From NCBI RefSeq assembly GCF_000466965.1, contig NZ_BATB01000010.1, positions 1 through 64,000 of the forward strand: a stretch of DNA of 64,000 nt. Reading direction: 5' to 3'. A program made the position numbers and the translations under genes. The DNA is from Limimaricola cinnabarinus LL-001 (GTDB lineage: Bacteria > Pseudomonadota > Alphaproteobacteria > Rhodobacterales > Rhodobacteraceae). The notes under the pieces were generated by a model that saw nothing but the letters and a program-made list of their open reading frames with translations, was not told where the DNA came from and did no database searches. Below, in pieces: positions 35,222 to 37,224 of the stretch; the first letter of the stretch is position 1, and the number at the start of each line of letters is the position of its first letter.

Positions 35222-35770
35222 CTAGGCTCCGATCTCGCGCCATTCCCCCGGCGCCAGCCCATCAAGCGCCCAGCCGCCGATGCGCCATCGCACCAGCCGC
35301 AGCGTCGGGAACCCGGCGGCGGCGGTCATGCGGCGGACCTGCCGGTTGCGCCCTTCGCGGATCGCAATCTCGATCCACCTGTCGGGAATCGACTTGCGCA
35401 TCCGCACCGGCGGGTCGCGTTCCCATAATTCCGGCGTCTCGATCAGGCGCGCGCGGGCGGGTAGCGTCGGCCCGTCCTTGAGCGGCAGCCCCCGGCGCAG
35501 CGGTTCCAGATCGGCCTCGGTTGGTGCGCCCTCGACCTGCACGAGATAGGTCTTTTCCATCTTGTGTTTCGGGTCCGAGATCAGCGCCTGCAGCCGCCCG
35601 TCATCGGTGAGCAGCAACAGCCCCTCGCTGTCGCGGTCGAGACGCCCCGCGGGATAGACGCCGGGGCGGTCGATGAACCGAGACAGCGTCGCACGCGGCG
35701 AGGGGCTCTTGGCATCGGTGAACTGCGACAGCACGTTCATCGGCTTGTTGAACAAAACGAGACGCGGCAT
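35222..35770 (-). CDS. RsuA/RluE-type pseudouridine synthase
   Basis: A 182-residue pseudouridine synthase lacking the S4 domain, as in RluE (23S rRNA position 2457 in E. coli). The catalytic motif [14 protein letters not shown] has D45. The second motif is [10 protein letters not shown], with KTYLVQVEG between them. Length and lack of an RNA-binding S4 domain favour RluE over RsuA or RluB, but the exact rRNA target is inferred. Confidence 0.92.
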
Positions 35771-35798
35771 GGGGGTCCTTGGGCTAGTGCCAAAGCCC

Positions 35799-36056
35799 TA
35801 TAGAACAAGGGGAAGGCGCATGCAAAACCGATCGCGAAAAAATCGGGCGCTATGCAAGATTACCCCTTGATCCGACTCGGGCTTTGCCCCAAATGCCCCC
35901 TCAAGACGCCAACGCACGCGCCTCTGGCCACGCCTGGACGCAAGTCTCCGATCCGGAGGCCTACGCACAGACCAGCACGCGTTTATGCAGCGACGGTAAC
36001 GTCTCCCTTGGAACCGCCGGCCTCACGGGGCCCCCGTCTGTCTATCGGAGATGCAC
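35799..36056 (+). promoter_or_regulatory. Structured leader of the ornithine-decarboxylase-like gene
   Basis: About 258 bases between a TATAGAA element and the decarboxylase start, with dense pairing potential. CAAGGGG (35806-35812) is complementary to CCCCTTG (35863-35869), bracketing a small ORF. CTTGA...TCAAG encloses a GGGC/GCCC hairpin. CTCCG/CGGAG form a hairpin at 35946-35958, but TCTCCGAT (35945-35952) can instead pair with ATCGGAGA (36044-36051), which contains the GGAG ribosome binding site of the gene. GACG-GTAA-CGTC is a GNRA tetraloop hairpin. This is consistent with a regulated leader; alphaproteobacteria are known to carry a conserved speF leader RNA here. Confidence 0.55.
35820..35870 (+). 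CDS. Possible leader peptide upstream of the decarboxylase
   Basis: A 16-codon ORF, MQNRSRKNRALCKITP, with a good AAGGGGAAGG ribosome binding site. It ends Pro-stop, and its ribosome binding site can pair with the bases encoding its last residues. It is basic (Arg/Lys rich). There is no homology evidence, so this is a candidate regulatory uORF rather than a firm gene. Confidence 0.3.
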   Translation: MQNRSRKNRALCKITP

Positions 36057-37224
36057 ATGACTGCATATTACGCGGGCGCCAGCGCCCCCTCTTTCGCCGT
36101 CGCCAACCGCCTGGAGGCCTATGCCGCCACCGCCGAGTTCGACCGGCCGACTCTGGTCATCGACGTGGACCGCGTGGAAACCCAGTTCGAGGCGCTCAAG
36201 GCCGGTCTCGGTCGCGCCGACATCCATTATGCCGTGAAGGCAACCCGCATCCCGCGATCATCGAGCGCCTCGTGCGGCTCGGCTCGCATTTCGATGCGGC
36301 CTCGCGCGGTGAGATCGAGCTGTGCCTGTCCCAAGCGCGCGCCCTGAGCATGTCTCCTTCGGCAACACCATCAAGCGCGTCTCCGACATCGCCTTCGCCT
36401 ACAATGCGGGCATCCGCATGTTCGCGGTCGATGCCGAGGAAGAGCTGGAGAAGATCGCCGAGCATGCTCCAGGCGCGCAGGTCTATGTCCGCCTGATCGT
36501 CGAGACCTCCTCGGCTGACTGGCCGCTGACCCGCAAGTTCGGCTGCGACCGCGACACCGCTCTGAAGCTGCTCGACCGCGCGACCGAACTGGGCCTCGAG
36601 CCGCTGGGCTTCTCGTTCCATGTCGGGTCGCAGACCCGTCACGCCGAAATGTGGGTCCCGGTGCTCGACGAGCTGTCGCGCATCTGGACCGCCGCGCAGG
36701 AGGCGGGCCACCGGCTGCAGCTTCTCAACATCGGCGGCGGTTTCCCGGCCTTCTACGGCGAGGAGATCCAGGCCCCGACCGATTACGCCGCCGCCGTGAT
36801 GGAGCTGGTCGAGGCCCGTTTTCCGGGCGCCGAGCGGGTGATGGCCGAGCCGGGCCGCGGCATGGTCGCCGAAGCCGGCGTCATCGCCTGTGAAGTGATG
36901 CTCACCTCGCGCAAGTCGGACCGCGACATGCACCGCTGGGTCTATCTCTCGATCGGCCGCTTCTCGGGGCTGGCCGAAACCGAGGGCGAGGCGATCCGCT
37001 ACCAGTTCGTGACCCCGCATGACGGCGAAGCCACCAGCCCGTGTATCCTTGCCGGTCCGTCCTGCGACAGTGCCGATGTGCTCTATGAAAAGCGGCCGAT
37101 GAACCTGCCGCTCAACCTCAAATCCGGCGACCGGGTGCTGATCCGCAACACCGGGGCCTACACCTCGACCTATTCCTCGGTCTGCTTCAACGGCTTCCCG
37201 CCGCTGGATGTCGTGATCCTCTGA
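36057..37224 (+). pseudogene. PLP-dependent ornithine (or lysine) decarboxylase, two frameshifts
   Basis: A fold-type III, alanine-racemase-like decarboxylase producing putrescine (or cadaverine). When repaired it is about 389 residues. The PLP lysine is K61 in HYAVKAN. FSFHVGSQTRH and the glycine loop NIGGGFP follow, and the catalytic CDSADVLYEK lies near the C-terminus, with NTGAYTSTYSSVCFNGF at the end. Two one-base losses split it: at about 36241 (AAGGCAACC for AAGGCCAACC) and at about 36335 (CAAGCGCG for CAAGGCGCG). Start 36057 is preferred over ATG 36051 because the GGAG motif lies six bases before it. Ornithine is the usual substrate of alphaproteobacterial members. Confidence 0.88.

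Follow-up and report, generated by a model that had tools for sequence, protein, structure and literature searches.

The decarboxylase locus and its leader

The window, a stretch of 64,000 nucleotides from Limimaricola cinnabarinus LL-001, carries on its plus strand a gene for an ornithine/lysine decarboxylase (ODC), and directly before it lies a structured leader RNA with two alternative pairings. The features of the locus are as follows (SD, Shine-Dalgarno sequence).

35222..35770, minus strand: gene for an RNA pseudouridine synthase (Pfam PF00849), a divergent neighbour that bounds the leader region
35905-36053, plus strand: structured leader RNA upstream of the ODC gene, found in 65 of 66 related loci
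35905..36003, plus strand: domain I, a conserved 5' structured domain related to alpha-r45 and closed by helix P1, in 65 of the 66 named loci
35905..35908, plus strand: 5' strand of P1, GACG, fully paired (4 of 4) in each of the 63 leaders
35909-35910/35995-35996, 35913-35915/35990-35992 and 35918-35920/35986-35988, plus strand: inner helices of domain I
35944..35960, plus strand: insert hairpin GTCTCCG-ATC-CGGAGGC, which includes most of TCTCCGAT
36000..36003, plus strand: 3' strand of P1, CGTC, common to P1 and the anti-SD strand
36000..36006, plus strand: anti-SD strand CGTCTCC, partner of GGAGATG at 36047-36053, with 6-7 of 7 pairs in the 63 leaders
36007..36046, plus strand: hairpin separating the anti-SD from the SD, a pairing taken from the alignment
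36047..36053, plus strand: SD-containing strand GGAGATG, with the SD GGAG at 36047-36050
36057..36059, plus strand: putative ODC start codon, 6 nt 3' of GGAG
36057..37224, plus strand: ornithine/lysine decarboxylase gene, PLP fold III (Pfam PF02784/PF00278; PDB 2plj, E=1.1e-38)
36074..36087, plus strand: hairpin in ODC codons 6-11, GGGCG-CCAG-CGCCC, of a kind counted against shuffles below

The structure matched by the gene product, PDB 2plj, is a lysine/ornithine decarboxylase. The ODC frame (36057-37224) is broken by two shifts in the assembly, and the five relatives that were translated are intact over the stretch inspected; the two frameshifts may be either sequencing errors or the mark of a pseudogene. 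An open reading frame at 35852-36496 spans the leader, but a coding role for the leader was rejected, because the conserved blocks fall in differing frames across the species inspected, and on this informal comparison the constraint is taken to act on the RNA.

The GANTC site GACTC (35874..35878, plus strand) precedes the RNA and is probably part of the promoter. Counted from the start of the RNA, a GANTC lies at -40 to -20 in 58 of 65 Rhodobacteraceae loci, usually at a distance of 31-32 bases, against 315 of 18,911 20-nt windows from the same loci; in other families, 22 of 118 loci have one between -45 and -20. GANTC is the methylation site of CcrM, and its presence upstream of the leader suggests cell-cycle control of the ODC promoter.

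Two exclusive helices in the leader alignment

ODC homologues gathered from the named genomes gave 66 loci, and GACGCCAACGCACGCGCCTC, with up to 3 substitutions, lies upstream of ODC in 65 of them, the exception (L105) being a locus that starts inside the gene. Alignment A1 holds 66 leaders, the window included, minus three identical ones, and thus 63 distinct rows; extraction of the leaders demanded ATGA after GGAG, and none failed. Two near-invariant blocks (35905-35929 and 35987-36005 in the window) flank an insert of variable length that holds TCTCCGAT and is far shorter in most genera other than Limimaricola. The consensus fold consists of the 5' domain, in which 99.9% of 756 pair cells are standard, and an SD-hiding hairpin. 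P1 joins GACG (35905-35908) to CGTC (36000-36003) and the SD helix joins CGTCTCC (36000-36006) to GGAGATG (36047-36053), and since both use 36000-36003 they exclude each other. All 63 leaders have a complete P1; the SD helix is complete, with 7 pairs, in 57 of them and lacks one pair in the remaining 6. Six leaders with GAAG/CUUC keep P1 through a C-G to A-U double change, at the cost of one SD-helix pair in each; they look closely related, as judged without a tree, so that the change was probably one event. Such a layout, in which a conserved domain and an SD-hiding helix have one strand in common, is that of a translational riboswitch.

Double changes in P1 and domain I amount to 8 cells against 1.2 in shuffles, a value reached by 0 of 500, whereas 132 of 500 shuffles have at least as many double-changed pairs. 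Nine of these 12 pairs never vary, and conservation, not covariation, therefore carries much of the weight. The SD hairpin has 17 double-change cells against 4.3 in shuffles (reached by 0 of 500) and 4 pairs with double changes (reached by 5 of 500); sliding it by -3 yields more of both (5 pairs and 24 cells), but then only 45.8% of the cells pair. Within the hairpin at 36007..36046, the helix formed by columns 118-120/154-156 has double changes in 2 of its 3 pairs, with 91.3% of cells paired. Among 86 diverse members, which came from searches with a model that itself scores P1 pairing, 83 have a P1 of at least 4 bp, compared with a mean of 42.8 and a maximum of 54 in 200 shuffles, and other families spell this helix with other letters (GCCC/GGGC, GACGU/ACGUC, GCAC/GUGC).

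Folding predictions favour the form in which the SD is hidden. The four core pairs of the SD helix reach a mean probability above 0.5 in 55 of the 63 leaders and P1 does so in none; in the window, the pairing of CGTCTCC with GGAGATG has a mean pair probability of 0.98, and imposing P1 carries a penalty of 8.4 kcal/mol. By this prediction the ground state is off, and translation requires that something keep P1 closed. Because P1 is disfavoured in folding, it would need a ligand, a protein or co-transcriptional trapping, and, as its strands are transcribed first, early trapping may be possible. In 51 of the 63 Rhodobacteraceae leaders and 51 of 103 others, the anti-SD/SD duplex surpasses 95 or more of 100 shuffles; in 24 of the 103 it fails to beat 80 of 100 (the 103 are 119 loci with a gene, minus identical cores and loci without a recognised start).

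A preliminary description of this stretch had proposed two mutually exclusive pairings upstream of the decarboxylase, one of which hides its ribosome binding site (RBS), and had named as the switch a perfect 8-base complement between TCTCCGAT (35945-35952) and ATCGGAGA (36044-36051), with a local hairpin formed with CGGAG (35954-35958) as its competitor. Letters and coordinates are exact, and the general layout holds in a conserved ODC leader, but the long-range pair does not: the strand predicted to hide the SD is a different one, CGTCTCC at 36000-36006. The 8-base match between a leader's own SD octamer and its own insert is unique to the window, as the other 62 distinct leaders, including seven from Limimaricola that share ATCGGAGA, have at most 5 matching bases. 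When forced in 35905-36090, the pairing gives -60.9 kcal/mol compared with -69.9 kcal/mol unconstrained, 9 kcal/mol above the best fold, and its mean pair probability is 1.7e-6; it becomes the best fold only with the leader cut at 35940 and not in the longer contexts folded. A complement of at least 8 bases to 36040-36056 appears in 25 of 2000 shuffles of 35905-36040, which makes the perfect match mildly unusual by composition, and that this pair works as a switch is very improbable. Comparison with relatives thus divided the proposal, since the long-range pair is not conserved, but P1 and the SD helix are, and folding the Limimaricola inserts as isolated fragments shows the local hairpin CTCCG/CGGAG kept in the genus, with 6-7 bp and differing letters in 8 of 8.

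Distribution, relatives and genes behind the element

Model R1 was built from 41 leaders, among them the window, whose own domain I scores 83.4 bits. Searched against 198 genomes of the family, it gave 63 matches, and 66 of these genomes have ODC. The element lies upstream of ODC, on the same contig and strand, in 63 of the 63 family genomes with a match, 309-407 nt before the aligned part of ODC. Three of the 66 genomes have ODC and no R1 match: in G125 the contig ends within the ODC gene; in G015 ODC is 43% identical, and the wider model R2 (see below) gave no match in the retrieved stretch even with E allowed to reach 10; and G060 has a decayed leader copy of 14.5 bits without CGACGGTAAC. 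This last one (L289, 393-460) is a natural leader without CGACGGTAAC in which the P1 strands are altered and UCUCCCUUGGAA is kept before ODC.

Among 385 genomes of the class, R1 gave 13 matches at E<=0.01, and the ten outside Rhodobacteraceae all precede an ODC-related gene (33% identity in L124, 47-52% in the others). These ten leaders resemble alpha-r45 in GCACGUGCC ... ACGACG; miRNA-type Rfam matches were also obtained in them, all below gathering scores, and were dismissed as chance. Model R2 combines nine of the ten intermediates with ten Rhodobacteraceae leaders and includes no alpha-r45 sequence; it was obtained by enlarging the model step by step, and its E-values are approximate. R2 matches 71 of the 385 class genomes at E<=0.05, and in a 249-genome sample of the phylum, for which the number of genomes outside the class is unstated, its 12 matches at E<=0.001 are all in Alphaproteobacteria. 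In the family of genome G525 the element is present in 32 of 40 genomes, mostly in two copies.

At gathering scores, Rfam has no match in the leader, and speF (RF00518, 37 bits) and alpha-r45 (RF02347, 40 bits) have none in the 64 kb. Neither model finds anything up to E=10 in 35700-36130, and in the ten intermediates the alpha-r45 model gives no match at E of 0.5 or below. RF00518 matches six of 190 class genomes, none of the six in Rhodobacteraceae. Six test loci with speF and alpha-r45 were found with the speF model, none of them used in R2, and R1 has no match in them up to E=10. R2 lands on the Rfam alpha-r45 positions in four of the six (L107, L108, L110 and L111), with E of 1.3e-4 to 1.7e-3 in 18.8 kb, and is weak in the other two (L112, partial, E about 0.12-0.19; L109, E 0.47 without filters). 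With this profile, built without alpha-r45, homology to the alpha-r45 core is detectable. Where speF scores above its cut-off, in four loci (L107-L110), alpha-r45 lies 7-8 bases upstream of speF, and the two are annotated as separate Rfam families. The link to a speF leader drawn in the preliminary description has therefore lost the direct Rfam match, but survives indirectly through the relation to alpha-r45, which adjoins speF.

Like the leader, alpha-r45 (RF02347, 'Alphaproteobacterial sRNA ar45') has the core CGCACG[U/C]GCC ... CGACGG and an outer 4-bp helix and lies upstream of an ODC leader. They differ in that alpha-r45 loci carry GCCC/GGGC and a U run, whereas the window carries GACG/CGUC and the anti-SD, and alpha-r45 is catalogued as an sRNA, unlike the leader, which is in cis. 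PMC7717549 reports a separate alpha-r45 transcript in Bartonella, immediately upstream of speF and of unknown function, and states that alpha-r45 of S. meliloti co-precipitates with Hfq; both observations would fit a role in trans. PMC12403871 likewise calls the role of alpha-r45 unclear. PMC1273637 describes speF in an extended form, in which a large insertion caps a 5' stem close to the putative transcription start. It also reports that none of six pathway compounds bound to the Agrobacterium leader, and its list of tested compounds lacks homospermidine. The speF element (RF00518) and its extended form resemble our leader in preceding a related decarboxylase gene, and the 5' stem with its insertion fits domain I; alpha-r45 and speF together fit the extended speF element.

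Other RNAs have comparable functions. PMC8632094 describes odc1 as an alphaproteobacterial ODC leader with its RBS inside a stem, a short uORF and two UUG starts two bases apart; it differs at the start codons from the leader, which has AUG after the SD in 63 of 63 cases. The SpeFL/speF leader of Enterobacteria exerts post-transcriptional control of an ODC gene, as proposed here. The spermidine riboswitch, a SAM-aptamer variant (PMC10853860), is a precedent for polyamine sensing by RNA, but the window has no Rfam match of any kind at gathering scores. Among the literature matches listed, which were open-licence only, there was no report of the Rhodobacteraceae form of the leader or of a polyamine-gene regulon of alpha-r45, a search that may miss alpha-r45 papers because the name is shared with the androgen receptor AR45.

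Outside Rhodobacteraceae, 130 loci were fetched, with a few weak matches omitted; they are not independent, many coming from one family. A panel of six proteins, chosen among the genes encountered there, served to score what lies behind the element; any other kind of gene therefore counts as none. The nearest panel gene was ODC in 67 loci, speD in 30, a distant ODC-like gene in 17, homospermidine synthase in 4, an amidotransferase in 1 and none in 11. The position upstream of polyamine biosynthesis genes is consistent, as ODC, ODC-like, homospermidine synthase or speD is nearest in 118 of the 130, next to the 63 of 63 family genomes with the element. All 30 speD loci come from the family of G525, with speE next in 29 of them, and homospermidine synthase is the first or second gene in 11 of the 130. 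SpeD and SpeE of L197 score above the NCBIfam cut-offs. For the homospermidine synthase of L203 NCBIfam gave nothing, but solved structures of the same enzyme match it (E=9e-177), and the two decarboxylases tested have lysine/ornithine decarboxylases as their best matches. Loci with no panel gene include truncated contigs (L189, L191 and L204), matches at E>1e-3 (L275, L277, L278, L280, L283 and L284), and L173 and L208, which are neither; all 11 were kept in the count. L173, a second copy in G238, is a strong R2 match (52.9 bits) with no panel gene within 2.6 kb behind it, and the copy in L165 (G274) precedes a class I glutamine amidotransferase-like gene that falls below NCBIfam cut-offs.

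Across families, domain I is as a rule followed by a pyrimidine-rich strand, a hairpin, a purine-rich SD and a start codon, and a further hairpin often lies a few codons into the first open reading frame. A stem of at least 5 bp lies within +8..+48 in 45 of the 63 Rhodobacteraceae leaders, against a shuffle mean of 8.5 (maximum 14), although the control segment +100..+140 is itself raised (24 of 63 against 10.4, maximum 15). The corresponding early-ORF stem is found in 62 of 103 other leaders, against a shuffle mean of 17.7. In the window's leader this is the hairpin at 36074-36087, in the first ODC codons, the letters of which change across leaders. The first open reading frame is ODC in Rhodobacteraceae and elsewhere an N-terminally extended ODC or a short uORF. 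Most leader copies before speD (L197, L237-L241, L251-L274) have a uORF of 8-10 codons ending in Arg-Gly-stop, for example MSGSSLRG, and in the copies read its stop sits in a GC-rich hairpin. The uORF recalls eukaryotic SAM decarboxylase mRNA, which also has a short uORF.

A proposed translational switch and its alternatives

We read 35905-36053 as the form taken in Rhodobacteraceae by a 5' leader that is widespread before alphaproteobacterial polyamine genes, related to alpha-r45 and acting in cis as a translational switch, and assign this reading a probability of about 0.65. Comparison between genomes demonstrates the element, its two conserved predicted pairings with their overlap, the relation to alpha-r45 at the level of the profile and the associations with genes. 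That it is a cis-acting leader of polyamine genes related to alpha-r45 is well supported, and that it switches translation through the shared CGTC is likely. With P1 open, CGTCTCC would pair with GGAGATG and the RBS of ODC would be hidden; with P1 held closed, the RBS would be freed. Cells would toggle between both forms, with the balance set by a ligand or protein bound to domain I and with polyamine status as the putative signal; the homospermidine synthase and SAM decarboxylase genes behind the element would favour polyamine status over ornithine alone.

What acts on domain I can be seen in two ways. A narrower form of the proposed switch would make domain I a metabolite-binding aptamer, and the leader a polyamine riboswitch, perhaps for homospermidine. 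Its near-invariant unpaired letters, the restriction of the genes largely to polyamine synthesis, speD-speE and homospermidine synthase included, and an expression platform with a shared strand agree with this, and homospermidine is absent from the compounds listed as tried in PMC1273637; but the failure of six pathway compounds to bind the Agrobacterium leader in that same paper speaks against it, and we hold the aptamer to be a tentative option. Those negative binding results argue for a protein or an Hfq/sRNA partner on domain I, with the RNA itself not sensing metabolites, as does the co-precipitation of alpha-r45 with Hfq reported in PMC7717549. This option is compatible with the switch and just as tentative as the aptamer, and a two-state cis platform does not require such a partner.

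Two other explanations would place the function elsewhere. The 5' domain could be mainly a terminator or a processed sRNA acting in trans, its association with polyamine genes being positional. A run of at least 4 U after P1 in 51 of 69 members outside Rhodobacteraceae, where transcription termination could also take place, and the independent alpha-r45 transcript of Bartonella (PMC7717549) are in line with this; however, the run is found in just 6 of 63 Rhodobacteraceae leaders, all of which keep the anti-SD, and the element precedes several different polyamine genes and is followed by the hairpin and the SD, so that we regard a function mainly in trans as unlikely. Alternatively, the act of translating a short leader ORF, or the first ODC codons, could serve as the sensor, on the model of ornithine-sensing leader peptides. 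The short uORF that often follows the SD outside Rhodobacteraceae, with its Arg-Gly-stop ending before speD, lends itself to such a role, but the uORF peptides differ widely among families and in Rhodobacteraceae ODC itself starts at the first AUG beyond the SD, which makes translation as the sensor more doubtful still.

Taking the switch beyond Rhodobacteraceae, the domain of alpha-r45 and extended speF may be the sensor of one switch class common to Alphaproteobacteria, for a polyamine not listed as tried, of which homospermidine is the obvious candidate. This class would govern ODC, homospermidine synthase and speD-speE with swapped outputs, hiding the SD in Rhodobacteraceae and ending transcription at the U run or releasing a small RNA elsewhere; it is a speculative proposal, which we put slightly below the aptamer in probability.

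Through this leader alpha-r45 gains a possible cis-regulatory meaning, its function being described as uncharacterised or unclear in PMC7717549 and PMC12403871. The unsolved speF element is reopened by a compact 150-base version with a clear two-state platform, a form short enough to be directly assayable, and the gene set of ODC, homospermidine synthase and speD-speE narrows the signals to which it may respond.
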